Assembly: GCA_028697015.1 (NCBI GenBank)
Contig: JAQVFW010000005.1
Span: 1-42,110, forward strand
DNA from: Candidatus Paceibacterota bacterium
Lineage (GTDB): Bacteria > Patescibacteriota > Minisyncoccia > Minisyncoccales > GWA2-38-27
DNA length: 42,110 nucleotides
Reading direction: 5' to 3'
Shown in pieces: positions 1 to 32,230 of the stretch. A program made the position numbers and the translations under genes. Under the pieces are notes generated by a model, which worked only from the letters and a program-made list of their open reading frames with translations, did not search any database and was not told the origin of the DNA. Within the stretch, counting starts at the first letter, position 1, and each line of letters begins with the position of its first letter.

Positions 1-44
1 GACCTTGAATAATTTTTAAAATATAGAAATTAAAAAATAATAAA

Positions 45-3000
45 ATGTTAAGCCGAACAAAAAAAAGAAAAATATTCAAAGGTTTTACTCTTATTGAGTT
101 TTTAATAGTAACTGCAGTTATTGGAATAATGTCTTCAATGGCTGTCGGGTATTTGTCTAGTTCAAGAGAACAAACCAAAGATACAAGAATTGCTCTTGCA
201 ATAGCTCAGATAGAATCGATAGCGGAGATAGTGCATCTTAATGACGGAAAGTATGATGCTCTTTGCTCTAGCGAAACATCTTTATCAACTGAAAGAGGGC
301 TTGATGTTATTCAAAATGATATAACTGCAAACGAAGGAACCGTTGCCTGTTTTGCTAAAGATGACAATTACTGCATTTCGGCATTGTTAAACAGCGGCCT
401 CTATTTCTATATCAAAGACAATATAAGCGCTAAATTTGGAAATCAGGGATGTACAAGCGCTACGGTTGGCGGAGATGAAGACGATGACGATGATGATGGT
501 GATGATGATGGAAACGGAGTAATAATTGATACAGGATGCTATACGGAAGAAAGCTTAATTCTTCAAATCGGAGGAAGCGATCATACTTTGTCTCTTAGAG
601 AAGACGGCACGGTATGGGCTTGGGGAAGAAATAATTACGGACAAGTTGGAGACAACAGTGTTACGGAAAGACATACCCCAGTCCAAGTAAAAGGAGTTGG
701 AGGAGTTGATTATTTAACAAGTATTATTGAAGTTACAGGAAGGGGCTGGCATTCTTTGGCCCTAAAATCAGACGGAACAGTTTATGCTTGGGGAAGAAGC
801 TTGTATGGAGCTCTTGGAGACGGAACTACAATTACAAAATATGCTCCCGTCCAAGTAAAAGGAGTCGGAGGAACCGGGAATTTAACAAACATTAAAGGAA
901 TTGGGACAGGATGGTGGCATTCTCTTGCGATAAGAGAAGACGGCACCGTTTTTGCATGGGGAGGCAATCAGTACGGACAGCTTGGAGACAATAGTACTAC
1001 GGATAGCAATACTCCCGTTCAAGTAAAAGGAGTTGGAGGAAGCGGTTATCTTACCAATGTCTTGCAAGTTGCAGGAGGAAACGAACACACAGTTGCCTTA
1101 AGAGAAGACGGAACTGTTTATGCTTGGGGTAAGAATGAACATGGCCAGCTTGGAGATAATAGTACTACGGATAGATATACTCCAGTCCAAGTAAAAGGAG
1201 TTGGAGGGGAAGGATTTTTAACTAATGCTATAAGTGTTGCTGCAGGAAGCGCATATTCTCTTGCTCTTCTTGAAGACGGAACCGTTTATACTTGGGGAAA
1301 TAATTGGTACGGCCAGCTTGGAGACAATACTACAGAGCATAGTTCTGCTCCCGTCAAAGTAAAAGGAGTAGGAGGAGTTGATTATTTAACTGATATTGTT
1401 GCTATTGCAAGCGGATGGTATCATTCTCTTGCTCTAAAATCAGACGGAACCGTTTATGCCTGGGGAAGCAATCTTTATGGCGGTTTGGGAGTAGGAGTTG
1501 GATCTGATTACATTTCTACTCCTGTTGAAGTTAAGGGAATAGGCGGAGTTGGAAGTTTAACTGGAATTGAAACAATTGGGACGGGACATAGAAATTCCTT
1601 TGCTGTTGGAAGCGACGGGGCAGTTTACGCTTGGGGGCTAAATGATTACGGAGAATTGGGAGATGATACGGTAGAAAGCAGATTTACGCCGGTTAAAATT
1701 TGGAATTTAAGTCCTGGGCTTGTAGTTGAAATTGAAGCTGGAGCTTATCATTCTCTTGGTATTAGAGCAGGCGGCACTGTTTTTGCCTGGGGTTACAATA
1801 GCGCAGGACAGTTGGGAGATAATACTACTCTTGAAAGACTTAGCGGAGTTCAAGTTAAAGATTCAACAGGAGATGATTTTTTTGAAAATGCAGAAGGAAT
1901 TGCCGCCGGAGCTTATCATTCTCTTGCTCTAAAATCAGACGGAACCGTTTATGCCTGGGGGTTTAACGGAGGAGGACAACTGGGAGACGATAGTACGACA
2001 AACAGTTCTCTTCCAGTCCAAGTAAAAGGAGTCGGAGGTTCCGGCAATTTGACCAATGCTACAAGTGTTGCTGCGGGATATTTTCATTCTCTTGCTCTAA
2101 AATCAGACGGCACGGTCTACGCTTGGGGATACAACAATTATGGCCAGCTTGGAGATAATAGTACGACAGAAAGGCATGTTCCAATTCAAGTTAGCATAAC
2201 TAGTGTTTCTGCTATTGCTGCAGGAGATTATCATTCCCTTGCTCTAAAATCAGACGGAACCGTTTGGGCTTGGGGAAAAAATGACAATGGCCAGCTTGGA
2301 GATAATAGTACCACTGAGCGTCTTGTTCCTGTCCAAGTAAAAGGAGTCGGAGGAGAAGGAAATTTATCCGATATTATAGACGTATCTGCCGGAGTTTGGT
2401 TTTCCCTTGCTCTAAAATCAGACGGAACCGTCTATGCTTGGGGATATAATAATTACGGACAGCTTGGAAATGATGATTCTGTAGATAGCTCTGTTCCAGT
2501 CCAAGTAAAAGGAGTCGGAGGAGAAGGAAACTTATCCAATATTTCTGCAATTTCCGCAGGAGGATCTCATTCCCTTGCTCTAAAATCAGACGGAACTGTC
2601 TATTCTTGGGGAAGAAACAATTATGGCCAGCTTGGGGATGCAAGCATAACAACAAGAAGAACTCCCGTAAAGGTAAAGGATGAGGGAGGAGAGAATGAAC
2701 TTACAAATGTTTCTTCAATTTCCGCAGGAATAGACAATCATTCTCTTGCTTTAAAAGAAGAAGGAATTGTTTATTCTTGGGGAAGAAACAATTATGGCCA
2801 GCTTGGCAATGACACGATTACAAATACCGCTGCCCCTTCAAGAACGTGCGATCTTCCGGCTGTTGGAGAAGAGGGAGAACCTCCTGTTCCTGTTGAAGGA
2901 TGCACGGACGAGAATGCTGTAAATTATAATCCGGAGGCGGTAACAGATGACAATTCATGTGAATATTCGTATAGCAGGCCCTCTCAAATTGCGGCTGGAT

Positions 3001-6000
3001 TTTTGCATTCTCTCGTTGTAAGAGAAGACGGAACCGTTTATGCTTGGGGAAGAAATAATTACGGCCAGCTTGGAGATAGCAGCACAGTAGATTGGACTAC
3101 TCCGGTTCTTATTCCCTCCAAAGTAAAAAGCTCAATGAATTATTTTACTGATGCTTTGGACGTTAAGGCAGGATATTATCATTCCCTTGCTCTAAAATCA
3201 GACGGAACCGTTTGGGCTTGGGGATATGGCAATTACGGCCAGCTTGGGATTAATTTTACGACAAGTTACACTCCTATCCAAGTCAAAGGAGTTGGAGGAT
3301 CGGGTTATTTAACAAATATTATAGCAATAGGGATAGGCAATGATTATTCCCTTGCTCTAAAATCAGACGGAACCGTTTATGCCTGGGGAAGAAATTATTA
3401 CGGCTATTTAGGAGATGATACTACGACAAACAGAAGTACTCCCGTCCAAGTAAAAGGAGTGGGAGGAGAAGGATATTTGACCAGTATTACGGACATTGCT
3501 GCAGGGGTTTATCATACTCTTGCCCTAAAATCAGACGGTACGGTTTACTCTTGGGGATATAATGGTATTGGCCAGCTTGGAGACGGAACTACGGTAAATA
3601 AGCATACTCCCGTCCAAGTAAAAGGAGTGGGAGGAGAAGGATATTTGACCGATATTGTCGCAATTGCCGCAGGAGATTATCATTCCCTTGCTCTAAAATC
3701 AGACGGAACCGTTTGGGCTTGGGGAGAAAACGTAGTTGGCCAATTGGGAGATAATACTACGACAAATAGAAGTACTCCGGTCCAGGTAAAAGGAGTGGGA
3801 GGAGAAGGATATTTAACAAATGTTGCTAGCGTTGCCGCAGGGAACGCATATTCTCTTGCTCTTCTTGATGACGGCACGGTTTACGCTTTGGGGTATAATG
3901 GATCAGGGCAATTAGGAGATAATACTACAACAAACAGAAGTACCCCCGTTCAAGTTAAAGGTCCTTTTGGAATAGGATATTTGACCGATATTGTCGGTAT
4001 TGCGGCGGGATGGAAACATTCTCTTGCAACAAGAGAAGATGGCACTGCTTGGGCTTGGGGATATAACGGATGGGGACAATTAGGGGATAGAACTACAACA
4101 GATAGGCATTTTCCTGTCAAAGTTCTTTTTGAAGATGAGCCGGTTTTTGAAGGATCAATTGCTCAAATTTCATCAGGAAAGGAAACCGGAGCCGGAAATC
4201 ATACTGTTGCTCTTCTTGACGATGGAACGGTTTATGCTTGGGGATATAATAATATTGGACAGCTTGGAGATGGAACTCAGACAAACAGGCGCATCCCTGT
4301 ACAAGTTAAAAGCACAGACGGAACAATAGGCCTAACTAATATTATAGAAGTTGCAGCCGGGGGGAATCATTCTCTTGCGCTTGCAACAGGCGGAACAGTT
4401 TATGCGTGGGGATGGAATGCCTACGGCCAGCTTGGGGATAATACTACAACAAGCAGAGTTGTTCCTGTAGAGGTTAAAGGTCCAGGAGGAGCCGGACTTT
4501 TAGAAAATGTTATAAACATCGCTGCAGGAGGTCGTTTCTCTCTGGCTTTAAAAAATGACGGAACCGTATGGGCTTGGGGAAGAAATGGTTCGGGCCAGCT
4601 TGGAGACGGTACTACGACAGATAAGCTTACTCCCGTCCAGGTAAGAGGAGTAAGTGGAAGTGGCTATTTAACCGATATTGTCGCAATTGCCGCAGGAGGC
4701 CTTCATTCTTTAGCACTAAAATCCGATGGAACGGTTTATGCTTGGGGAGAAAACGTAGTTGGCCAATTGGGAGATGTTGATACTTATCAAACAAACAGTA
4801 CTTCTCCTGTAAAAGTTAATGGAGTAGGAGGAGAAGGATATTTAACAAATGTTGCTGCTATTTCTGCGGGATACGTTCATTCTATGGCTTTAAAAGATGA
4901 CGGAACCGTTTTTACATGGGGAAGAAATTATAACGGCCAGCTTGGAGACGGATCAGGCCTTATAGAAAAGCAAACCCCGGTTCAGGTTAAAGGAGTAGGA
5001 GGAGTAGATTATTTAACTGACATTGAAGAAATTTCAGGCGGTCATTCTCATTCTTTGGCCCTAAAATCAGACGGAACCGTTTTTGCCTGGGGATGGAATT
5101 ATAACGGCCAGCTTGGGGATGATACCACTTCAAGCAAGAGTACTCCCGTTCAGGTAAAAGGGAAAGACGGGATTGGTTATTTAACCGATATTATTTCAAT
5201 TGCCGGAGGTTCTTATCATTCCGTTGCTTTAAAAAGCAATAGCACTATTTGGACTTGGGGATATAATATATATGGACAGCTTGGAAATAACACTACGACA
5301 AACAGCGATACTCCCGTTTTAGTACTGTGGGGAACAGATCCGATAATTTACGGATGTACGGATCCGGAAGCGAATAACTTTAATCCTGATGCTGAAATAG
5401 ACGATAGCTCTTGCACGTATCCTGATCCGGTTTTCGGATGCACCGACTTTGAAGCTTTGAATTATAATCCTGTTGCGGATACGGATGATGGTTCTTGTGA
5501 ATATCACCTTGATCCTCTTGTTCAAATTGATGGAGGAGCTTATCATTCTATTGCTGTTACAAACAGCGGAGTGGTTTATACTTGGGGATCAAATACAAAT
5601 GGACAGCTTGGAGACGGAACAACAGTGAGTAGAACTGTTCCTATTCAAGTAAAAGGAGTCGGAGGAGTAAATTATTTAACCAATGTCAAAAGTGTTGCTG
5701 CAGGAGGTCGTTTCTCTCTGGCTTTAAAAAATGACGGAACCGTATGGGCTTGGGGAGATAATTGGTCGGGCAAACTTGGGGACGGAACTACTACTTCTCG
5801 TCTTACTCCTATCCAAGTTAGAGGACCTGGAGGATCCGGTTATTTAACAAGTATTACTTCAATTAGTGGTGGATGGTATTCTGCAACTGCTCTAAAATCA
5901 GACGGCACTGTATGGGCTTGGGGATATAACATACATGGAATGCTAGGAGACGGAACTACAATTACAAAATACACTCCTGTCCAGGTAAAAGGAGTCGGAG

Positions 6001-7862
6001 GATCTGGTTATTTAACAAATATTATAGCAATTGACAGTAATGATTGGCACTCTCTTGCTCTAAAATCAGACGGCACTGTATGGGCTTGGGGAGCAAATCA
6101 TGCTGGGCAATTAGGAGATAATACTACTACAGAAATGCGTCTTACTCCTGTTCAGGTAGTAGGCCCAAATGGATCTGGCTATTTAACGGATATTATTAAA
6201 ATTTCTGCGGGTTATCATCACTCTCTTGCTCTAAAATCAGACGGCACTGTATGGGCTTGGGGAGAAAATAGTCTTGGACAACGAGGAGATGGAACAACTG
6301 TTTTATATAACTATACTCCTGTCCAGGTAGTAGGTCCCGGAGGAGTTGGTTATTTAACAAATATTACCGATATTGCTGCCGGTTTTAGACACTCTTTTGC
6401 TCTAAAATCAGACGGTACTGTATGGGCTTGGGGGGGAAATTGGTATGGTAACTTGGGAGATAATACTATAACAAATAGACGTACTCCTGTTCAGGTTAAG
6501 GGCCCCGGAGGAATTGGTTATTTCTTAAATGTTATAAAAATCGGCGCAGGATTTCATCATTCTCTTGCAATAAAAAGTGATGGAACCGGATGGGCTTGGG
6601 GAGCAAATTATTCTGGACAACTAGGAGATGACACAACTATAGAGAGACATACTCCTGTTAGAATTGGAAGCCCTGAGGATCCGCCTGTTGTTTCTTCAGA
6701 GGTTATTCAAATCTCAGGAGGATATGAACATTCTCTTGCTCTAAAAGAAGATGGTACGGTTTATTCCTGGGGAAGGAATCATTATGGCCAATTGGGAATT
6801 GGTACTACGGTAAACGAGTATAGTCCAATACAGGTAAGAGGTCCTGCTGGTGTTGGTTATTTGACGAACGTTGAAAATATTACCAAAGGAGGTCGTCATT
6901 CTCTTGCAGTAAAGGACGACGGAACCGTATGGGCCTGGGGATGGAATAATGCAGGTCAGCTTGGGGATGGTACTTTAACAAATAGATATACTCCGGTCCA
7001 AGTAAAAGGAGTTGGGGGAACTGGCTATCTTACTAATGCTACAAGCGTTGCAGGCGGATATAGTTTTTCTCTTGCCCTAAAATCAGATGGAACAGTCTAT
7101 GCATGGGGATATAATGTAAATGGTCAATTAGGAAACGGGACTACGACAGATAGTGTTACTGTTCCTGTCCAAGTAAAAGGAGTCGGAGGAGTCGGGTATT
7201 TGACTGATATAACAAGTATTACGGCGGGAAATTATCATGCTCTCGCTTTAAAATCAGATGGCACGGTCTACGCTTGGGGAAGAAATTATAACGGTGAGCT
7301 TGGAGATGGGACTCAAACAAATAAATATACTCCAGTCCAAGTAAAAGGAGTCGGAGGAACAGGGTATTTGACAAATATTGAAAGTTTTATTGGAGGTGCT
7401 TCTTATTCTCTTGCTTTAAAATCAGATGGCACGGTCTACTCTTGGGGAGCAAATTATTCTGGACAACTAGGAGATGGAACAACGACAAACAAATATACTC
7501 CAGTCCAAGTAAAAGGAGTCGGAGGAGTTGATTATTTAACCAGTATTGTTCATGTTGCAGCAGGTTATCATCATACTCTTGCTTTAAAATCAGATGGCAC
7601 GGTCTACTCTTGGGGATATAATGAATATGGTGCATTAGGAGATGGAACAACAACAAACAAATATACTCCAGTCCAAGTAAAAGGAGTTGGAGGAGCAGGG
7701 TATTTATCGTCAATTGAAAATATTTGGGCAGGATCTGTGTTTTTTTCAATGGCCCTTAAAGATGATGGTACCGTTTGGACTTGGGGAAGCAATGAATATG
7801 GTCAGCTTGGAGACGGAACTACAACTACAAGATATACTCCAGTCCAGGTACTTGGGCTTTAG
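45..7862 (+). CDS. Giant type IV prepilin-like protein with 42 RCC1 repeats
   Basis: This 2605-residue protein begins with a class III (type IV pilin) signal: a basic leader ending in KG (residues 12-13), then FTLIEFLIVTAVIGIMS with Glu at mature position 5. A short pilin-like domain with several Cys runs to about residue 142, followed by an Asp-rich tether (about 145-157). The rest is RCC1 repeats of about 50-55 residues with the core DGTVYAWGxNxYGQLGD. I count 42. Breaks in the pattern fall after repeats 7, 14, 21, 28 and 35, so the array reads as six seven-bladed propellers (about 173-551, 564-933, 983-1358, 1373-1758, 1827-2205, 2220-2605). Two linkers carry Cys/Asp motifs of the type GCTDxxAxNYNPxA..DDGSCEY. 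The pilin start predicts membrane insertion and possible assembly into, or display by, a type IV pilus. The RCC1 region is probably a surface binding array. No eukaryotic Ran role is implied. The function is unknown. Confidence 0.93.
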   Translation: MLSRTKKRKIFKGFTLIEFLIVTAVIGIMSSMAVGYLSSSREQTKDTRIALAIAQIESIAEIVHLNDGKYDALCSSETSLSTERGLDVIQNDITANEGTVACFAKDDNYCISALLNSGLYFYIKDNISAKFGNQGCTSATVGGDEDDDDDDGDDDGNGVIIDTGCYTEESLILQIGGSDHTLSLREDGTVWAWGRNNYGQVGDNSVTERHTPVQVKGVGGVDYLTSIIEVTGRGWHSLALKSDGTVYAWGRSLYGALGDGTTITKYAPVQVKGVGGTGNLTNIKGIGTGWWHSLAIREDGTVFAWGGNQYGQLGDNSTTDSNTPVQVKGVGGSGYLTNVLQVAGGNEHTVALREDGTVYAWGKNEHGQLGDNSTTDRYTPVQVKGVGGEGFLTNAISVAAGSAYSLALLEDGTVYTWGNNWYGQLGDNTTEHSSAPVKVKGVGGVDYLTDIVAIASGWYHSLALKSDGTVYAWGSNLYGGLGVGVGSDYISTPVEVKGIGGVGSLTGIETIGTGHRNSFAVGSDGAVYAWGLNDYGELGDDTVESRFTPVKIWNLSPGLVVEIEAGAYHSLGIRAGGTVFAWGYNSAGQLGDNTTLERLSGVQVKDSTGDDFFENAEGIAAGAYHSLALKSDGTVYAWGFNGGGQLGDDSTTNSSLPVQVKGVGGSGNLTNATSVAAGYFHSLALKSDGTVYAWGYNNYGQLGDNSTTERHVPIQVSITSVSAIAAGDYHSLALKSDGTVWAWGKNDNGQLGDNSTTERLVPVQVKGVGGEGNLSDIIDVSAGVWFSLALKSDGTVYAWGYNNYGQLGNDDSVDSSVPVQVKGVGGEGNLSNISAISAGGSHSLALKSDGTVYSWGRNNYGQLGDASITTRRTPVKVKDEGGENELTNVSSISAGIDNHSLALKEEGIVYSWGRNNYGQLGNDTITNTAAPSRTCDLPAVGEEGEPPVPVEGCTDENAVNYNPEAVTDDNSCEYSYSRPSQIAAGFLHSLVVREDGTVYAWGRNNYGQLGDSSTVDWTTPVLIPSKVKSSMNYFTDALDVKAGYYHSLALKSDGTVWAWGYGNYGQLGINFTTSYTPIQVKGVGGSGYLTNIIAIGIGNDYSLALKSDGTVYAWGRNYYGYLGDDTTTNRSTPVQVKGVGGEGYLTSITDIAAGVYHTLALKSDGTVYSWGYNGIGQLGDGTTVNKHTPVQVKGVGGEGYLTDIVAIAAGDYHSLALKSDGTVWAWGENVVGQLGDNTTTNRSTPVQVKGVGGEGYLTNVASVAAGNAYSLALLDDGTVYALGYNGSGQLGDNTTTNRSTPVQVKGPFGIGYLTDIVGIAAGWKHSLATREDGTAWAWGYNGWGQLGDRTTTDRHFPVKVLFEDEPVFEGSIAQISSGKETGAGNHTVALLDDGTVYAWGYNNIGQLGDGTQTNRRIPVQVKSTDGTIGLTNIIEVAAGGNHSLALATGGTVYAWGWNAYGQLGDNTTTSRVVPVEVKGPGGAGLLENVINIAAGGRFSLALKNDGTVWAWGRNGSGQLGDGTTTDKLTPVQVRGVSGSGYLTDIVAIAAGGLHSLALKSDGTVYAWGENVVGQLGDVDTYQTNSTSPVKVNGVGGEGYLTNVAAISAGYVHSMALKDDGTVFTWGRNYNGQLGDGSGLIEKQTPVQVKGVGGVDYLTDIEEISGGHSHSLALKSDGTVFAWGWNYNGQLGDDTTSSKSTPVQVKGKDGIGYLTDIISIAGGSYHSVALKSNSTIWTWGYNIYGQLGNNTTTNSDTPVLVLWGTDPIIYGCTDPEANNFNPDAEIDDSSCTYPDPVFGCTDFEALNYNPVADTDDGSCEYHLDPLVQIDGGAYHSIAVTNSGVVYTWGSNTNGQLGDGTTVSRTVPIQVKGVGGVNYLTNVKSVAAGGRFSLALKNDGTVWAWGDNWSGKLGDGTTTSRLTPIQVRGPGGSGYLTSITSISGGWYSATALKSDGTVWAWGYNIHGMLGDGTTITKYTPVQVKGVGGSGYLTNIIAIDSNDWHSLALKSDGTVWAWGANHAGQLGDNTTTEMRLTPVQVVGPNGSGYLTDIIKISAGYHHSLALKSDGTVWAWGENSLGQRGDGTTVLYNYTPVQVVGPGGVGYLTNITDIAAGFRHSFALKSDGTVWAWGGNWYGNLGDNTITNRRTPVQVKGPGGIGYFLNVIKIGAGFHHSLAIKSDGTGWAWGANYSGQLGDDTTIERHTPVRIGSPEDPPVVSSEVIQISGGYEHSLALKEDGTVYSWGRNHYGQLGIGTTVNEYSPIQVRGPAGVGYLTNVENITKGGRHSLAVKDDGTVWAWGWNNAGQLGDGTLTNRYTPVQVKGVGGTGYLTNATSVAGGYSFSLALKSDGTVYAWGYNVNGQLGNGTTTDSVTVPVQVKGVGGVGYLTDITSITAGNYHALALKSDGTVYAWGRNYNGELGDGTQTNKYTPVQVKGVGGTGYLTNIESFIGGASYSLALKSDGTVYSWGANYSGQLGDGTTTNKYTPVQVKGVGGVDYLTSIVHVAAGYHHTLALKSDGTVYSWGYNEYGALGDGTTTNKYTPVQVKGVGGAGYLSSIENIWAGSVFFSMALKDDGTVWTWGSNEYGQLGDGTTTTRYTPVQVLGL

Positions 7863-7868
7863 GAAAAT

Positions 7869-7897
7869 TTGACAAATCCTCCGTATTTTGCTATTAT
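7869..7897 (+). promoter_or_regulatory. Sigma-70-like promoter of small RNA 1
   Basis: A consensus TTGACA (7869-7874) and TATTAT (7892-7897) are separated by exactly 17 bases. It lies just after the stop codon of the giant RCC1 gene. The predicted start is about 7904, only about 30 bases before a strong terminator, so the product should be a short RNA and not an mRNA. Confidence 0.65.
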
Positions 7898-7903
7898 TTT
7901 CAT

Positions 7904-7960
7904 AGTGAGTGTAATACTTATCTAAGTCGGCACAAAGCCCTACTGCAGCAGGGCTTTTTG
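7904..7960 (+). ncRNA. Putative small RNA 1 (about 57 nt)
   Basis: This is a short transcription unit bounded by a good promoter upstream and a Rho-independent terminator (stem AAAGCCCT/AGGGCTTT, 7934-7941 with 7950-7957, then T-rich). There is no ORF of useful length. The 5' part contains TAGTGAGTG (7903-7911) and TCTAAGTC (7921-7928). Each is exactly complementary to a segment of the second small RNA about 100 bases downstream. The unit could also be only the terminated 3' region of the giant gene's transcript. I do not recognise a known RNA family. Confidence 0.4.
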
Positions 7961-7969
7961 CTTTTTTAT
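7934..7969 (+). terminator. Rho-independent terminator after the RCC1 gene
   Basis: An 8-bp GC-rich stem (7934-7941 with 7950-7957) has its loop rich in CTGCAG and is followed by a T-rich tract. It ends both the giant gene and small RNA 1. Confidence 0.8.
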
Positions 7970-7979
7970 TTCACTTTGA

Positions 7980-7985
7980 TATAAT
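7980..7985 (+). promoter_or_regulatory. Putative -10 box of small RNA 2
   Basis: A perfect TATAAT lies 7 bases before the start of the 10-bp stem that begins at 7993. The -35 region is weak (TTGCTT at 7958-7963, 16-bp spacing) and sits in the T-tract of the preceding terminator. Confidence 0.45.
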
Positions 7986-7992
7986 AAATTTT

Positions 7993-8053
7993 GAGCTGGG
8001 AGGCACGCACTCACTAAAGACTTAGAGGAGTAAACTCTCCCGGCTCTTTTTTT
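7993..8053 (+). ncRNA. Putative structured small RNA 2 / murB leader attenuator
   Basis: This compact element has a closing stem of 10 pairs (7993-8002 with 8037-8046, GAGCTGGGAG against CTCCCGGCTC, one G-U). Inside it is a second hairpin: ACTC and CTAA (8009-8012, 8014-8017) pair with TTAG and GAGT (8022-8025, 8028-8031) around an AGAC loop. A run of seven T follows at once, so the outer stem doubles as a terminator. A TATAAT lies 7 bases upstream. It could be an independent small RNA of about 60 nt, or an attenuator in the leader of murB, which begins 52 bases later. I do not recognise the family. It is not an SRP, 6S or tmRNA by sequence. Confidence 0.5.
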
Positions 8054-8105
8054 ATTTCCTGCAAATGGTATTATTAACTAAAGATAATAAATTTTGATTT
8101 TGAAA

Positions 8106-9023
8106 ATGAAAAAAAATATTTCAATAAAAAGATACACTACTTTTAAAATCGGAGGAAAGGCCAAGTATTTTATAAAACTGAGAAAAAAGGAGAAAATAAA
8201 AGAAACAGTACAGGAAATAAAAAAGAAGAAGCTTCCTTTTTTAATTATCGGAGGAGGAAGCAATATCCTTGCAGATGATAAAGGATACAGCGGAGTTATT
8301 TTAAAGATAGACAACAGAGAACTGCAAGTAAAAGACAGCAAGATTTTTATCGGAGCCGGAGCGCCTCTTTCTCTTGCGGTTGGTGCTTCTTTAAAAAATT
8401 CTTTAACCGGACTTGAATGGGCTTCCGGAATTCCAGGGACAGTCGGCGGAGCCATTTATGGGAATGCCGCCGCTTTTGGATTTTCTGTAAAAGATTGTCT
8501 TGAAAGCGTTGATGTTTTTAATATTAAAAAGGAAAAATTAGAAACTGTTTCTGTCTCAAAATGCCAATATGGAAACAAGGAAAGCTTGTTTAAAAAAAAC
8601 AAAGACCTGATTATTGTTTCAGCCGTTTTTAAATTGAAAAAAGGGAGAAAGGAGGAAATTGAAAAGAAAATGAAAGAGCTTATTTCAAAAAGAAAAAAAA
8701 GCCATCCTAACACTTTGCCTTCTGCCGGATGCATATTTAAAAATTACGAAGGAAAAATATTGGATAAAAAAATAATTGAGAAATTTCCCGAGCTTGAAAA
8801 ATTCAACAAGTGGGGAATGATTCCGGTTTCATATCTGATAGAAAAATCAAATCTTAAAGGGAAAAAAGTCGGAGGAGTAAAAGTGTCAAACAAGCATGCG
8901 AACTTTATTGTCAACACCGATAAAGGAAAAAAGAAAGATGTTTTGGAGCTGATTAAGATTATAAAAAAAGAAGTTAAGAAAATTTTCGGCATAAAAATCG
9001 AAGAAGAAGTGCAAAAATTGTAA
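8106..9023 (+). CDS. murB: UDP-N-acetylenolpyruvoylglucosamine reductase MurB
   Basis: MurB is the FAD- and NADPH-dependent enzyme that reduces UDP-GlcNAc-enolpyruvate to UDP-MurNAc, the second committed step of peptidoglycan synthesis, in the cytoplasm. The 305-residue protein shows the family pattern: TTFKIGGKAKYF near the start, the FAD-binding IIGGGSNIL (about 47-55), ASGIPGTVGGAIYGNAAAFG (about 107-126), PSAGCIFKN (about 203-211) and a C-terminal IEEEV. In the position of the usual catalytic Ser (AGS-F) it has Cys (AGCIF), a substitution also found in other MurBs. I chose the ATG at 8106 over an in-frame TTG at 8094 because homology begins here. No Shine-Dalgarno is evident. It stands alone, preceded by the structured small RNAs. 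Confidence 0.93.
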   Translation: MKKNISIKRYTTFKIGGKAKYFIKLRKKEKIKETVQEIKKKKLPFLIIGGGSNILADDKGYSGVILKIDNRELQVKDSKIFIGAGAPLSLAVGASLKNSLTGLEWASGIPGTVGGAIYGNAAAFGFSVKDCLESVDVFNIKKEKLETVSVSKCQYGNKESLFKKNKDLIIVSAVFKLKKGRKEEIEKKMKELISKRKKSHPNTLPSAGCIFKNYEGKILDKKIIEKFPELEKFNKWGMIPVSYLIEKSNLKGKKVGGVKVSNKHANFIVNTDKGKKKDVLELIKIIKKEVKKIFGIKIEEEVQKL

Positions 9024-9902: not shown

Positions 9903-10313
9903 ATGGTTTACAAAACAAAGAGATCCGATTTAAGGGTCCAAAATTATGAAGTTGAAAACTTCAAAAAAAATGGTTATGCAGGCAAACATATTCTAGCTGA
10001 TTTTTGGTTTGGAAAAAAAATAGAAAAAAAAGAAAAACTTGAAAGAATTCTTCTTGCAGCGGCAAAAAAAGCGAAAAGCAATCCTTTAGGTATAAATATC
10101 TATCAGTTCGAGCCCCAGGGATTAACCGGGGTCGTTTTGCTTTCCGAATCCCATATTGCTATTCATACCTGGCCGGAGATAGGGTATATCGCAATTGATA
10201 TTTTTACCTGCGGCACAGAGTCAATGCCAAATAAAGCTCTTGATTTTTTAAGGAAAGAAATTTCTCCCAAAAAGGAAAAAATCAAAGAGATAAAAAGAGG
10301 AGAGGAATTATGA
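9903..10313 (+). CDS. speD: S-adenosylmethionine decarboxylase proenzyme (SpeD, bacterial/archaeal short type)
   Basis: SpeD makes decarboxylated S-adenosylmethionine, the aminopropyl donor for polyamines. The 136-residue proenzyme contains LLSESHIAIHTWPE. Family knowledge places the self-cleavage between Glu82 and Ser83, with Ser83 becoming the pyruvoyl group, His88 aiding processing and Cys103 (FTCG) the catalytic Cys. The length fits the class 1B enzymes, about 120-140 residues. Its stop overlaps the bpsA start by 4 bases (ATGA), so the two are translationally coupled. The start at 9903 lacks a Shine-Dalgarno and lies just after the structured leader, which suggests translational control. 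Confidence 0.95.
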   Translation: MVYKTKRSDLRVQNYEVENFKKNGYAGKHILADFWFGKKIEKKEKLERILLAAAKKAKSNPLGINIYQFEPQGLTGVVLLSESHIAIHTWPEIGYIAIDIFTCGTESMPNKALDFLRKEISPKKEKIKEIKRGEEL

Positions 10314-11272
10314 GAAAAAAAGTAATTGGAATTCTGCTTAAAAAAAACGGCATTGATTTTTGGGAACTTTCTTCTGTAATAGGCCATATGGTTTCTTGTG
10401 TAAGAGCTCTTAAGAAAATGAAAAAAGAGGGTCTTGTTGTTTTCAAAAAGAACAAAATTATTTTAACTGAAAAAGGGAAAAAAGAAGCTGAAAAAATTAA
10501 TGCGGTAAAAATAGAGATGCCACTCAAAGGAAAGATAATTTTGAAAGAAAACAAATCTCTTCTTAAAAAATTTAAAGAAGTCAGAAAGAGTTTTGTCGGT
10601 AAGGTAGAATACGACCAGTTGCAAGTAAAAGCGGAAAGCGTTATAGACAAGATTGAGCTGATGGATAAAAAAGGGGATATCAAAGGGAAAAAAATAATAT
10701 GTATTGGAGACGATGATTTTGTCGGAATAGCTCTTGCTATTAAAGGAGGAGCTGAAGAAATCGCAGTTCTTGATATAGACAAAGATATTTTAAATTACGA
10801 AAAGGAATTCTTTAAAAAAAAGAAAATTAAATTTAAAACAATTTTACATTCTTTGACAAATCCGCTTCCAAAAGAAATAAAAGGGAAGTATGACGTTTTT
10901 ATAACCGAACCGCCCGATACGGTTTCAGGAAACACGCTCTTTTTTTCAAGAGGAGTAGAATCTTTAAAAGAAGAAGGAGTCGGATACTTGGGAATATCCC
11001 AAAGCACTCTTGAAAAAGAAAAAATAGCAAAGATACAAAAAAACATTCTTGATATGAATATGGTAATTACCGATGTTTTTGACAGGTTTTCATTGTATGA
11101 TAATGCAAAAGACGAATTTGAATGGGTTTTCGGCCTTCCTGAAGAAATTTCTCTTCCTGAAAGTTCTTGGTTTAATTCAACCCTTGTCAGGGCGGAGAAC
11201 TTTAAAAAACCAAAACCTCTTATAAAAGGCAAATATAGCAAGGCGATACTTGAAACAAAGTTTTATTGTTAG
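10310..11272 (+). CDS. bpsA: BpsA-like branched-chain polyamine synthase (aminopropyltransferase)
   Basis: BpsA (DUF43 family) transfers aminopropyl groups from decarboxylated SAM to the internal nitrogen of spermidine, giving N4-branched polyamines. It is best known from hyperthermophilic archaea and bacteria. The 320-residue product has an N-terminal winged-helix-like region (about 1-65, DFWELSSVIGHM), then a Rossmann-type core. The core carries the family motif IICIGDDDFVGIAL (about 129-142), VLDIDKDIL (about 153-161) and TEPPDTVSG (199-207). The ATGA overlap with speD, which supplies the co-substrate, strongly supports the assignment. Whether the product is branched or linear cannot be read from sequence. 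Confidence 0.85.
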   Translation: MRKKVIGILLKKNGIDFWELSSVIGHMVSCVRALKKMKKEGLVVFKKNKIILTEKGKKEAEKINAVKIEMPLKGKIILKENKSLLKKFKEVRKSFVGKVEYDQLQVKAESVIDKIELMDKKGDIKGKKIICIGDDDFVGIALAIKGGAEEIAVLDIDKDILNYEKEFFKKKKIKFKTILHSLTNPLPKEIKGKYDVFITEPPDTVSGNTLFFSRGVESLKEEGVGYLGISQSTLEKEKIAKIQKNILDMNMVITDVFDRFSLYDNAKDEFEWVFGLPEEISLPESSWFNSTLVRAENFKKPKPLIKGKYSKAILETKFYC

Positions 11273-23539: not shown

Positions 23540-24919
23540 ATGGTTGAACAATATTTGGAATTTTTAAATAATCTTGCTCCCTGGCTTATTCCTGGCGCTA
23601 AAGCGGTTTTTTCCCATAAAATAACAATTGGAGTTTGGAGTTTTATCAAATCATGGTGGTGGATACCACTTCCTTATTTTCTATGGAAGTGGTTTCTCTT
23701 TTTTTGGGGATGGTGGAGAACTTTGCATATATGGGTTCCCGGGCAAAAGCCGATTGTTTTGGATATAAAGATTCCGGCTTCCGGCGTAAAGCCGATAAGG
23801 GCGATGGAAATTGTCATGTCAGAGCTCTATCAGGCAATTTACAGGCCTCCGGATACTTGGGAAAAATGGATAGAGGGGCAGACCCAGCTTTCTTATTCTT
23901 TTGAAGTTGTTTCAATCGAGGGAGAGATTCACTTTATAATAAGATTAAGGGGAAGACAGATGAGAAATGCAATAGAATCGGTGATTTTTTCCCAATATCC
24001 CGATGCTGAAATTGCCGAAATTGACGACTATGTAAAAAATATACCTTCGGATATTCCCAACAACGAATGGGATCTTTGGGGTTCAAATTATGTTTTGGCA
24101 AGGCCAAGCCCTTATCCGATAAGGACATATGATTTTTTTGAAACGGAAAAAGAGCCCACTGAAGAAAAAATAATAGACCCGATGTCTTCTTTGCTTGAAG
24201 CGATGGCAAAAATCGGCAAAGGAGAACAGCTGTGGTTGCAAATAATTGCAAAGCCGATAAGCGAAAGAGATTTTCCAAATATGAAGTACTGGTCCGAGAT
24301 TAAAGAAATAAAAGAAGAATTATCCAGAAGGAAAAAGATTACTCCTCCTTCCCGTCCGATAATTTTGGAAGTTATCGATTTTCTTCTTACGGGAAAAATG
24401 CCGGGAGTTAAAAAAGAAGAAGAAAAAGAAATTGTTCCTCCTGAAATGAAGCTTACTCCGGGTGAAAGAGACATTCTTGCCGCTGTTGAAAAAAAAGAAT
24501 CAAAGCTTTCTTTTAAAACAGTTATTCGTTTTATTTATCTTGGAAAAAAGGATTTTTTCTTCAAACCGCATGGAAGAATAATTTTCAGCTATTTTGCTTC
24601 TTTTTCTTCTCCTACGGGAAATTCTCTTGTTCCCAAGGGCCAGCCGATAATGACTAAAATAAAAAAGAGCTGGTTTTTGCCTATTAATCTTTTTGCAAAA
24701 AGAAGGCTTTATTTAAGAAAAAGAAAGCTTTTCCGCTTTTATAAATGGAGAGAAGACCCTTTTTATCCGAGAGCGACCGAAGAGGGGACTTTTGTTCTCA
24801 GTACGGAAGAACTTGCTACGATATTCCACTTTCCGGCGAAAGGAACAACTCTTGCTCCTCTTGTTCCTAAAACGGATATGAAAAAAGGCGAAGCTCCTTC
24901 TTCTCTTCCATGGGAATAA
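23540..24919 (+). CDS. Conserved membrane protein next to the VirD4-like ATPase (unknown function)
   Basis: The 459-residue protein has a Trp-rich hydrophobic region (about 30-60, GVWSFIKSWWWIPLPYFLWK onward) forming one long or two short membrane segments. A large soluble domain follows with no motif I recognise. The stretch QLSYSFEVVSIEGEIHFIIRL (shortened here) and the later EIAEIDDYVKNIP look like alternating beta and alpha elements, and a Pro-rich C-terminus ends the chain. Proteins of this kind sit beside HerA/VirD4-like ATPases in many CPR genomes, which suggests a membrane partner for that ATPase. That link is inferred from position only. Confidence 0.6.
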   Translation: MVEQYLEFLNNLAPWLIPGAKAVFSHKITIGVWSFIKSWWWIPLPYFLWKWFLFFWGWWRTLHIWVPGQKPIVLDIKIPASGVKPIRAMEIVMSELYQAIYRPPDTWEKWIEGQTQLSYSFEVVSIEGEIHFIIRLRGRQMRNAIESVIFSQYPDAEIAEIDDYVKNIPSDIPNNEWDLWGSNYVLARPSPYPIRTYDFFETEKEPTEEKIIDPMSSLLEAMAKIGKGEQLWLQIIAKPISERDFPNMKYWSEIKEIKEELSRRKKITPPSRPIILEVIDFLLTGKMPGVKKEEEKEIVPPEMKLTPGERDILAAVEKKESKLSFKTVIRFIYLGKKDFFFKPHGRIIFSYFASFSSPTGNSLVPKGQPIMTKIKKSWFLPINLFAKRRLYLRKRKLFRFYKWREDPFYPRATEEGTFVLSTEELATIFHFPAKGTTLAPLVPKTDMKKGEAPSSLPWE

Positions 24920-24996: not shown

Positions 24997-26586
24997 ATGG
25001 GAGATATAAATTTATTCGGAGAAACTACATACAGAAATACCAAAAGGAGATTTGGGATAAAGCTTGACGATAGAAGGCGCCATATGTATGTGATTGGAAA
25101 AACAGGAATGGGAAAAACAGCCATGCTTCAAAATATGGCTGTTCAGGATATTAGAGAAGGAAGAGGAATAGGATTTGTAGACCCCCATGGAGAAGCGGCC
25201 GAAGAATTATTAGATCATATTCCCAAAAGCAGAATAAACGATGTTATTTATTTTAACCCTGCGGATTTGAATTATCCGATTGCTTTTAATGTTATGGAAA
25301 GAGTCAGTGTCGAGTATAGGCATCTTGTTGCAAGCGGTCTTATGGGTGTTTTTAAGAAAATATGGCCAGATGTATGGTCGGCGAGAATGGAATATATTTT
25401 GAATAATACTATTCTTGCTCTTCTTGAATATCCGGGGGCAACGCTTCTTGGAGTAAACAGAATGTTTTCGGATGCCGAATTCAGAAAGAAAGTCGTATCA
25501 AGTGTTACGGATGTTGTCGTTAAGGCCTTCTGGGTCAAGGAATATGCAAGCTATGCTCAGAAATACGAAACGGAAGCGACGGCGGCGATACAAAATAAAG
25601 TAGGACAATTCATATCAGCTCCTCTTATCAGAAATATAATAGGTCAGGTAAAATCTACTATTGATATGAGAAAAATAATGGATGAGAGGAAGATTTTAAT
25701 ACTTAACCTTTCAAAAGGAAGGATAGGAGAGGATAATTCCACCCTTCTTGGAGCCCTTCTTATAACCAAAATACAGCTTGCTGCAATGTCGAGAGTAGAT
25801 ATACCGGAAAAAGACAGAGAGGACTTTTTTCTTTATGTTGATGAGTTTCAGAACTTTGCCACCGAGTCATTTGCAACTATTCTTTCGGAGGCAAGAAAAT
25901 ACCGCCTTTCCCTTATACTAGGCCATCAGTATATCGCTCAAATGCAAGAAGAAGTAAGGGATGCTGTTTTTGGTAACGTCGGAACTCTTGTTTCTTTCAG
26001 AGTCGGGGCCGAAGACGCGGAATTTTTGGAAAAAGAATTTATGCCGGAATTTCTGGCAAATGATATTGTCAATTTGACGAAATATAATATATACTTAAAG
26101 CTGATGATTGACGGGATGGCTGGAAGGGCTTTTTCGGCCAAAACGCTTCCGCCGCCTATTGCGCTTGAGGATTCAAACAGGGAGAAAATAATCAAAGTTT
26201 CAAGAGAAAGGTATGGCGTTTCGAAAGAAAAGGTGGAGCAGAATATAATTGATTGGTGGAACCTTTCGGAAGAAAACTTTTCTTCGGAAGCTTCCCAGTC
26301 CGTTTTATACGACGCCAAGTGTTCTTCTTGCGGAAAAGACACAAAAGTTATTTTTCCTCCTGATAAATCAAAGCCGATTTATTGCAAAAAATGCTTGAAA
26401 AAGAAAAAAGAAGGCGCTTTGCCTTTAAAAAAAGAAACAGCATTACCTGTTTTAGAAAAAGAAGAGAATTTAGTTCTTCTTAAGAAGAAAGATGATATTT
26501 TAAAAAAGAAAGGCAAACAGGTTGACATTGATAAGTTAAGGGAACTTTTAAAAGAGACATTAAATAAAGAAGAGAAAGATAAATAA
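24997..26586 (+). CDS. VirD4/HerA-like ATPase with C-terminal zinc-ribbon
   Basis: This 529-residue protein belongs to the TraG/VirD4-HerA branch of hexameric P-loop ATPases. It has Walker A GKTGMGKT (34-41), GFVDPHGEAAEELLDHIP (about 58-75), Walker B FFLYVDEFQNFA (about 275-286), and a sensor segment LSLILGHQYIAQMQ (about 305-318). Near the C-terminus four Cys (442, 445, 463, 466) form a CxxC-x17-CxxC zinc-ribbon, followed by a Lys-rich tail. Unlike classical VirD4 it has no N-terminal membrane helices. The membrane protein encoded just upstream may supply the anchor. Likely roles are DNA or protein transfer across the envelope. No relaxase or other conjugation gene is present here. Confidence 0.82.
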   Translation: MGDINLFGETTYRNTKRRFGIKLDDRRRHMYVIGKTGMGKTAMLQNMAVQDIREGRGIGFVDPHGEAAEELLDHIPKSRINDVIYFNPADLNYPIAFNVMERVSVEYRHLVASGLMGVFKKIWPDVWSARMEYILNNTILALLEYPGATLLGVNRMFSDAEFRKKVVSSVTDVVVKAFWVKEYASYAQKYETEATAAIQNKVGQFISAPLIRNIIGQVKSTIDMRKIMDERKILILNLSKGRIGEDNSTLLGALLITKIQLAAMSRVDIPEKDREDFFLYVDEFQNFATESFATILSEARKYRLSLILGHQYIAQMQEEVRDAVFGNVGTLVSFRVGAEDAEFLEKEFMPEFLANDIVNLTKYNIYLKLMIDGMAGRAFSAKTLPPPIALEDSNREKIIKVSRERYGVSKEKVEQNIIDWWNLSEENFSSEASQSVLYDAKCSSCGKDTKVIFPPDKSKPIYCKKCLKKKKEGALPLKKETALPVLEKEENLVLLKKKDDILKKKGKQVDIDKLRELLKETLNKEEKDK

Positions 26587-29887: not shown

Positions 29888-32230
29888 ATGAAAAATTTTG
29901 AAAACCCGCCGGAGAAGAAAGATTCTCGGGAAAATAGTCCCGGTTTTGTTGTTCCTGAGAGTTTTGGAGAGAAAAGAACTTCCGAGGAAGTCGAAGAGAT
30001 GAGAAAAATAAGGGAGGATTTAGATAGAAAAAAAAGTATTAGGGAGAGAAAAAAAGCAGGGGAAATACTTACTTCTAGTGAACTTGCTTCTTTGGATTTG
30101 AAAGAAGAAAAAAAGGAAACGGGAGAAGGCCCAGAAGTTTTAGGTAAGGAAGAGAAAGATAATGATAAGCAAAAAGATACATATAAAGAACCTGTTTTAG
30201 AGGGTGATTTAAAAGAAAAACTGCAAGAAACTCCAAAAATCATAGTTTTTGAACAAATCGGGGAAAAAAGAACAAAAGATGAAGTTGAAAAATATCAAAA
30301 GACAAGAGAGGCGTTAGAGAAAAAAGAAGATTTAAGAAGAAGAAAAAGAGAGGGGGAAATACTTACTTCTAGTGAACTTGCTTCTTTGGATTTGAAAGAA
30401 GAAAAAAAGGAAGAAGGGGAAATAAGCAAAGAGCTTTTGGAATTTGCTAAAGAATTGAATGATATTGGCAAAGAATACAGAGATGCTGATAAGCCAAAAG
30501 AAATGACAAAAGAAAGGGAAATTTTTAGAGAAAAGGCGCTTTATGAAAAAGGAGCATTTGTTTTAATAGAAAAAATAACAGGAGAGGAGAGAAAAGACAT
30601 TACAAAAGAGGTAAATGAAAAAAGAAATAAGGATCTCAGGGAGAAAGAATCACAGGGAAAGATAAAAAAAGTATGGAAGCAAGGGGAAGAAAAAGAATTT
30701 ATAGAAGCAAATAGAAAAAAGGAAGCAGAAAAACAAGAAAGAGAAATCAGAAAAGTTTTATTTAAAGATTATTTTGGACAGGATAAGGAAGGGGATGTTG
30801 ATGAATTTTTTGCCGAAAAAACTAAAGAATTAGCGGAGCTTGCAATGAGGTCTAAAAATGAAAAATTAACTCCAGAAGAAGTGGAGGTTCTTTTAATTTC
30901 GGGAAAGCACACCATAAAAGGACTTGAAGAATTAGAAGAAAAGAAAAAAGGACTTTTAGCCGGAGTTGGAAGATTTTTCGGAACGGAATCTTCTCTTAAA
31001 AAAGACGTAGAGGAAGCAAAGGAACTGATAAGAAAAAGAGATGAAGAAATAGAGGGCAAAATGAAAGAAAAATGGAATAAACTATTTGCTCGCGCAGTTT
31101 CAGAACGCGAACAAATTGTGGAAGGAGAAGTTCTAAAAAGAGCAGACAGAGCCGGGGTTGAGCCGGAAGAAATGATAAAAGAAGGAATTGAAAGAAAATC
31201 CAAAAAAGAACAGCAAAAAAAGGAAAAGAATAAAGAGGAAGAAATAATAGATATACCGAAAGATGCGATTGTAGAAAGTAAAGAAGACATGGAAAAGAAA
31301 GTTAATCTGGAAAGAAAAGAGAATATTAGAGAGATTATATCGGAAATATGGGAAAACGGCCCTTTTGATGAAGACCAGAAAGATTTTTACCAAGAAGAAT
31401 TTCTTCATGACGAAAAGCTTTTGAATTGGAATATTTCAGAAGAAGAAAGGGAAGGTTATATGAAAAAATGGAATATTGGAAACGGAGATGATTTTTTCAA
31501 AGTTCTGCAAGAAGAATCAAAGGGTAAAATAAAAGGGGAAGAAGAGGAGTTTGAAGAAAGATTTTACGCTCTTCTTTCTAAAGGATACAGGCCCGATAAA
31601 ATTAGAACAACCGGATTATTTTGGCAGAAAATGGAAATAACGGATATGCAAGGGAATAGGGGAAGCTTGCCACTTGATAAAGAAAATGATTTTTTGAATC
31701 ATTTGGTTGAGGAATTTAAAGAGGGTAATATTGAAATTATAAAGAGGAGAGATAAAGACAAAGAAGAAGAAAAGAAAGATAGTAGCCAAGCGGAAAAAGA
31801 AGAGCCAAAGAAAAAAGAAGATGATTCTGAGACAAAAAATCCCCAAAGACCTCCTTTAGAAAAAGAAGAAGAAAAAGTAGAAGAAGAACAAAAAAAGGAG
31901 GTTAATGTAGAAGAAGAAGTTAAAAAACTGGAAGAAAAATATCAGAAGGAATTTGAAAACTGCAAAAGTCTTGATGAAATTTATATAAAGATAGAAAACC
32001 TTTTTAAAGAAGGTTCTAAAAAAGCTGTTGATAAAATAAAAGAACTGATGCACGAATCTACTTATGCTTATTATAATATGGATGCAAATGGTCTTGTAAT
32101 GATGATAAAAGATGTAAAAGAAGCTAAAGAGGAAAATAAAAAAGAGAATGAAGATATATTATTGAGTTATGATATATCCGATATTCCGACATGGGCAGGA
32201 TTAAGGAAAAAAGTGGAGGAATTATTATAA
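29888..32230 (+). CDS. Glu/Lys-rich coiled-coil protein of unknown function
   Basis: The 780-residue protein is extremely rich in Glu, Lys, Arg and Asp, with no signal peptide, no membrane segment and few aromatic residues. Long stretches should be helical or disordered. Two copies of a module lie near the start (about 21-80 and 115-178). Each has EKRT-x-EVE near its beginning and GEILTSSELASLDLKEEKKE at its end. The DNA of the second half is identical over 60 bases (30059-30118 and 30353-30412). A more ordered segment with Trp and Phe lies at about 480-600 (DEDQKDFYQEEFLHDEKLLN and WQKMEITDMQGN). The C-terminal 100 residues look helical. I recognise no family. A scaffold or cytoskeletal role would be a guess. 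Confidence 0.8.
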   Translation: MKNFENPPEKKDSRENSPGFVVPESFGEKRTSEEVEEMRKIREDLDRKKSIRERKKAGEILTSSELASLDLKEEKKETGEGPEVLGKEEKDNDKQKDTYKEPVLEGDLKEKLQETPKIIVFEQIGEKRTKDEVEKYQKTREALEKKEDLRRRKREGEILTSSELASLDLKEEKKEEGEISKELLEFAKELNDIGKEYRDADKPKEMTKEREIFREKALYEKGAFVLIEKITGEERKDITKEVNEKRNKDLREKESQGKIKKVWKQGEEKEFIEANRKKEAEKQEREIRKVLFKDYFGQDKEGDVDEFFAEKTKELAELAMRSKNEKLTPEEVEVLLISGKHTIKGLEELEEKKKGLLAGVGRFFGTESSLKKDVEEAKELIRKRDEEIEGKMKEKWNKLFARAVSEREQIVEGEVLKRADRAGVEPEEMIKEGIERKSKKEQQKKEKNKEEEIIDIPKDAIVESKEDMEKKVNLERKENIREIISEIWENGPFDEDQKDFYQEEFLHDEKLLNWNISEEEREGYMKKWNIGNGDDFFKVLQEESKGKIKGEEEEFEERFYALLSKGYRPDKIRTTGLFWQKMEITDMQGNRGSLPLDKENDFLNHLVEEFKEGNIEIIKRRDKDKEEEKKDSSQAEKEEPKKKEDDSETKNPQRPPLEKEEEKVEEEQKKEVNVEEEVKKLEEKYQKEFENCKSLDEIYIKIENLFKEGSKKAVDKIKELMHESTYAYYNMDANGLVMMIKDVKEAKEENKKENEDILLSYDISDIPTWAGLRKKVEELL

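Follow-up and report, generated by a model that had tools for sequence, protein, structure and literature searches.

In the window, by which we mean the whole stretch of 42,110 nucleotides that was analysed, there is one giant modular pilin gene close to the contig start, at positions 45–7862 (+). The gene is a single unbroken frame that codes for 2605 residues, and an in-frame TAG at 24–26 leaves the ATG at 45 as the earliest possible start. The protein, as defined by its open reading frame and Pfam matches, has a mass of ~271 kDa without the leader and a pI of 4.8. Positions 1–12 (+), at the very start of the contig, read DLE followed by a stop codon in frame 1 and are a candidate for the 3′ terminus of a preceding RCC1 gene. 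Both this ending and the A/T-rich stretch after the stop resemble those of a paralogous pilin-RCC1 gene on contig C11 (..KDVVE-stop), so that the giant may be directly preceded by a further RCC1 gene. The GC content of the giant gene is raised (43% versus 35%), while its GC3 of 0.26 is on a par with that of its neighbours (~0.24–0.41), indicating that the GC excess reflects amino-acid composition and ruling out a recent horizontal gain as its source. Elsewhere in the window, a protein with a branched-chain polyamine synthase (BpsA) domain (10310–11272 (+)) adjoins S-adenosylmethionine decarboxylase, which is unusual for a very small genome, and a VirD4/TraG-like coupling ATPase with a zinc-finger domain (24997–26586 (+)) adjoins phosphoglycerate kinase. 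Two further proteins, of 780 and 459 residues (29888–32230 (+) and 23540–24919 (+)), have no Pfam or NCBIfam match.

The N-terminal segment of the giant comprises a prepilin leader, a complete pilin domain and an Asp-rich tether. The preliminary description had recognised a type IV pilin N-terminus and an Asp-rich tether between it and the propellers; both are borne out, and the pilin part extends beyond the methylation motif to a whole domain. Specifically, residues 1–13 (45–83 (+)) form the leader, MLSRTKKRKIFKG, matched by PF07963 and TIGR02532, with predicted cleavage between G and F (KG↓FTLIE). F+1 and E+5 are both present, so that the giant has the [GA]-[F/M] cut site and the Glu at +5 of a class III leader and lacks the non-canonical N-terminus of PilX-like proteins. 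The PF07963 N_methyl match at residues 11–33 scores 23.0 bits against a cutoff of 21.2, and TIGR02532 (NCBIfam), with residues 1–172 alone as query, scores 27.1 bits against a cutoff of 16.3. The pilin domain proper (residues 14–140, 84–464 (+)), composed of the alpha1 helix and a small beta domain with Cys, is recognised by its identity to the genome's own pilins, at 44% for the major pilin (129 aa) and 58% for the C11 paralogue (136 aa). In the AlphaFold2 model, the pilin part consists of a helix (16–63) and strands (100–132), with low confidence at residues 31–105; sequence identity and this partly low-confidence model together place a globular pilin domain after the helix. The tether, GGDEDDDDDDGDDDGNG, occupies residues 141–166 (465–542 (+)) and is probably flexible, as pLDDT is below 50 over residues 137–174, which span it. 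At the matching position, the C11 paralogue carries a Glu-rich tether.

Pfam detects 42 discrete RCC1 stretches in the 2605-aa protein, which constitute a non-pilus-specific extra domain joined to the pilin. The blades are spaced 55–58 residues apart, except at five junctions, those after blades 7 (52 residues), 10 (49), 14 (89), 21 (61) and 28 (109). The standard linker is absent at eight of the 41 junctions (7, 10, 14, 15, 21, 22, 28 and 35), a set that contains all five multiples of seven (hypergeometric p ~7e-5), precisely where pattern breaks had been noticed before; the irregular junctions 10, 15 and 22, absent from the preliminary description, are internal to propellers. None of the other periods tried, from 4 to 10 blades, fits. 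The earlier count of 42 repeats in six sevens is therefore upheld by the Pfam stretches, the junction pattern, the in-register alignment, the AlphaFold2 models of propellers 1 and 2 and the Foldseek match to UVR8, whereas the block length, given as 370–386 residues, has to be corrected to 383–398 aa. Blade-to-blade identity within the giant is 31–81% and the longest exact DNA repeat within the gene is 60 bases, which makes a misassembled repeat count unlikely. Structural glycines are retained in essentially all 42 blades, while variation is greatest at positions adjoining the GxxHS and WGxNxxG motifs, the pattern expected of a constant scaffold with changing loops. Blades at matching positions of different propellers are 0.557 identical, compared with 0.537 for blades at other positions, a weak signal of growth by whole-propeller duplication.

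AlphaFold2 prediction of residues 1–945 gave a mean pLDDT of 80 in the best of five models (80.2, the remaining four 36–53), with propellers 1 and 2 mostly above 85. Propeller 1 (blades 1–7, 543–1709 (+), pLDDT mostly 80–95) and propeller 2 (blades 8–14, 1710–2858 (+), pLDDT mostly 85–97) are each composed of exactly 28 strands, arranged as seven four-stranded blades. In a Foldseek search against the PDB, the top match is the seven-bladed UVR8 (TM 0.9 of target, E 3e-33; TM ~0.9 for propeller 1), followed by HERC2, RCC1 and RPGR, with BLIP-II (3qhy, 3qi0) lower down. The remaining blocks, propeller 3 (blades 15–21, 2979–4154 (+)), propeller 4 (blades 22–28, 4155–5348 (+)), propeller 5 (blades 29–35, 5514–6686 (+)) and propeller 6 (blades 36–42, 6687–7859 (+), up to the C-terminus), align in register with the other blocks, and phmmer relates propeller 4 to UVR8 (6e-62) and propeller 6 to the HERC2 RLD (1.7e-63). 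From this alignment and these sequence matches, we infer that propellers 3–6 would likewise close as seven-bladed discs. A model of propellers 4 and 5 from a five-row alignment reached a pLDDT of 36, and no claim is built on it. The forecast that structure prediction would give six discs thus holds in the model for the first two, and for the other four by register and homology.

The propellers are separated unevenly. Between blades 14 and 15 lies an insert with one Cys mini-motif, CTDENAVNYNPEAVTDDNSC (2859–2978 (+)), and between blades 28 and 29 lies an insert with two, CTDPEANNFNPDAEIDDSSC and CTDFEALNYNPVADTDDGSC (5349–5513 (+)). The mini-motif has the form CTDxxAxNYNPxAxxDDxSC; a DNA pattern search of the whole genome matched only the two copies between blades 28 and 29, and Pfam, NCBIfam and a literature search returned nothing for it. 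Positioned after blades 14 and 28, the Cys-rich inserts divide the propellers into three pairs of 2×7 blades, and the linkers within pairs are shorter than those between pairs.

The genome comprises 20 contigs with a total of 676,467 bases and has a completeness rating of 100%. A search for ribosomal protein L30 gave no match in it; Patescibacteria are known for the absence of this protein, and small size and missing L30 together agree with a patescibacterial genome. The pilus machinery that the preliminary description had asked for is found on contig C12, where PilB, PilT, PilC and PilD are clustered with three major pilins that are nearly identical to one another and with a number of smaller, minor ones. 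Neither of the outcomes that the preliminary description had named as refuting it, other blade numbers or a genome lacking prepilin peptidase or pilus machinery, was encountered. The giant gene is not adjacent to this operon. A second PilB-like ATPase is encoded on contig C6 (4716–6020 (−)), near a ruvB-like gene, yet the whole genome contains one PilC, which speaks against a second pilus system.

RCC1 repeats occur at three places in the genome, namely the giant and two frames on contig C11. The first of these, the pilin-RCC1 paralogue (2504–3835 (−)), has 443 residues and five blades, which are not enough to make up a standard disc of seven; it may be a truncated form or may associate with a second chain. 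The second (2–2491 (−)) has 830+ residues, a fn3-like domain and RCC1 repeats with no pilin part, and contig C11 terminates inside its RCC1 array; the protein is predicted to be secreted or membrane-anchored. Upstream of the C11 pair, 4631–8517 (−) encodes a TPR-containing protein that resembles O-antigen ligases (Wzy_C), along with a polysaccharide synthesis protein, and a link of this neighbour to pilin glycosylation is possible.

To follow the distribution of such proteins, we surveyed overlapping samples of the family, order, class and phylum, in which RCC1 was found in 1/14, 8/246, 18/384 and 26/380 genomes, respectively, amounting to ~49 distinct RCC1-bearing genomes. Within the family, RCC1 is confined to this genome (0/13 of the others), none of which belongs to the same genus, so that this sample gives no evidence for conservation of the giant; where the carrier domain has other matches in the family, these are short pilins of the ordinary kind, in frames of 135–196 residues. 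As for the combination of a methylation motif with RCC1, which the preliminary description had suggested looking for, the N-termini read in at least 10 of the ~49 RCC1-bearing genomes place a pilin-type start ahead of the RCC1 part. Four of these starts are canonical (this genome, G503/L078, G691/L089 and G728/L092) and six, assigned by eye, are PilX-like (L060, L068, L073 with two genes, L081, L083 and L085). The related fusions have 5–13 blades, with some arrays ending at a contig edge, and six propellers on one canonical pilin are the largest array among the surveyed fusions. Longer arrays elsewhere, in a 26-blade Chloroflexi MAG, a 21-blade Bacteroidetes MAG and a 21-blade relative of the class, have no prepilin motif, and when named genomes were scanned for near relatives, all that came back were RCC1 proteins with no visible prepilin motif, from Bacteroidetes, Chloroflexi, Corallococcus, Polyangium, Cohnella, Omnitrophota and further groups. 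Further RCC1 proteins of the phylum have a plain N-terminal hydrophobic segment in place of a pilin part, indicating that RCC1 cargo can do without a pilus. A PHROGs comparison of the giant detected long RCC1 arrays and RCC1-bearing tail proteins in phage families phrog_4219, phrog_7220, phrog_16766 and phrog_20500, where the propellers may serve in binding.

The reading that we favour, with a probability of about 0.6, takes the giant for a minor pilin of modular build, through which the C12-encoded type IV pilus would display a multivalent adhesin. In such a pathway, the giant, as a paralogue of the major pilin of the same genome, would be exported by Sec, its leader would be cleaved by the prepilin peptidase PilD, and the mature protein would be loaded as a rare subunit into the sole type IV pilus of the cell. 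Its location would most likely be at or near the pilus tip, because a cargo of ~255 kDa would be too bulky for packing into the shaft; the Asp-rich tether could also permit a shaft position or mere membrane placement. Six sticky seven-bladed discs, grouped two by two and carried by a flexible acidic tether, would then bind a presumed ligand on another cell, possibly the host of an episymbiont, and would give avidity and perhaps several specificities. This reading is based on the 44% identity to the major pilin, the leader with E5 and the C12 cluster with its single PilC; on the second pilin-RCC1 gene of the genome and the occurrence of such fusions in further lineages of the phylum; and on the 7×4-strand models, the UVR8 match at TM 0.9 and the combination of conserved scaffold glycines with variable loops. 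Furthermore, it draws on the PilX2 deletion phenotype (PMC12206443) and on the tip modelling of Streptococcus sanguinis PilB (PMC8179133), and by analogy with these an adhesin role is plausible. The distance of the gene from the pilus operon, the low-confidence alpha1 model, the other placements that the tether would permit, the absence of RCC1 from the 13 other family genomes and the pilin-free RCC1 proteins of the phylum count against it. More tentatively, the three propeller pairs might be rigid units joined by Cys-stapled hinges, whose diversified loops grip different host surface molecules; a multi-specific adhesin of this kind is possible, and, if real, would exceed all known pilin modules in size and act as a determinant of host range in an episymbiont.

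The same facts can be arranged differently. With the giant gene outside the pilus operon, a 2605-residue subunit that would be extreme in a filament, and other RCC1 proteins of the phylum that use a plain N-terminal hydrophobic segment, the prepilin helix might simply anchor a surface adhesin in the cytoplasmic membrane, its propeller chain crossing the envelope with no entry into a pilus. We consider this unlikely, since the entire pilin domain is kept, with E5, the Cys positions and the identity to the major pilin, and since the C11 paralogue retains its pilin domain too. Alternatively, the giant might cap and start the pilus, like PilY1 with minor pilins, or regulate its length or retraction, with binding secondary. 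PilY1 likewise bears a propeller, and deletion of pilX2 altered the diameter and length of thick pili (PMC12206443), but six propellers would be superfluous for a primer, the genome has its own small minor pilins, and the Pfam matches include no PilY1/PilC domain, making such a role improbable. It is still less probable that the giant is a sensor, decoy or inhibitor with phage or soluble proteins as its targets, in the manner of the secreted RCC1 propeller BLIP-II, which binds beta-lactamases: BLIP-II is among the Foldseek matches and within the RCC1/BLIPII group (PMC9218822), whereas presentation on a pilus indicates surface contact, and nothing points to a soluble partner. Finally, RCC1 blades are known for amplification and the C11 paralogue has five blades, short of a standard disc, but a functionless blade number arising from slippage or assembly artefact is very hard to reconcile with exact multiples of seven, with diverged blades sharing no exact DNA repeat above 60 bases, and with scaffold glycines retained across them.

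A multivalent pilus adhesin, as favoured here, has precedents. RCC1 and BLIP-II belong to one group of often recently amplified propellers (PMC9218822), and the giant has the seven-bladed RCC1 fold in common with BLIP-II, RCC1, UVR8 and HERC2, of which UVR8 matches best in structure (TM 0.9); BLIP-II and the RLD proteins of eukaryotes are soluble or cytoplasmic single RLDs (several in HERC2) with no pilin. The tip adhesin PilY1/PilC resembles the giant in displaying a propeller on a type IV pilus, but PilY1 is a non-pilin with the IPR008707 domain, which was not detected in the giant, and the propeller domain of Neisseria PilC/PilY1 is absent from the giant's Pfam matches. Closer in design are the modular pilins, for which PMC8179133 gives >1,200 proteins in 264 architectures, among which RCC1 may already figure, and models the bulky modules of S. 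sanguinis PilB at the pilus tip. Like the giant, S. sanguinis PilB and PilC combine an N-terminal pilin module with a grafted binding module (PMC8179133); their grafts are vWA or lectin, whereas the graft of the giant is RCC1, in a protein of 2605 residues with 42 repeats. The most extreme modular pilin quoted in the same paper has 860 residues and 12 repeats, so that the giant extends the reported size range ~threefold.

The closest known counterpart comes from an oral relative, Nanosynbacter lyticus TM7x, whose minor pilin PilX2 has a single hepta-bladed RCC1 propeller. When pilX2 was deleted, the proportion of host cells bound fell from 10.6% to 4.6%, and the authors proposed PilX2 to be a type IV pilus adhesin (PMC12206443). 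In view of PilX2, the preliminary claim of an architecture not yet described has to be corrected; a search for RCC1 together with pilin in the main texts of freely accessible journals found no six-propeller case. The principle is thus already known from PilX2 and the modular pilins, and what is new is the scale and the canonical, major-pilin-like carrier. Both PilX2 and the giant are patescibacterial pilins with C-terminal RCC1 propellers, and the giant may work like PilX2, with no claim of orthology. Compared by description, PilX2 has one propeller and no predicted PilD signal, whereas the giant has six propellers and a canonical prepilin leader, along with a major-pilin-like carrier domain, a tether and Cys inserts that set it apart. 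The joining of RCC1 propellers to pilins recurs in the phylum and reaches six discs. For the question of how Patescibacteria find their hosts and stay attached to them, the RCC1 pilins offer, beyond PilX2 alone, a concrete family in which host specificity and avidity can be studied.
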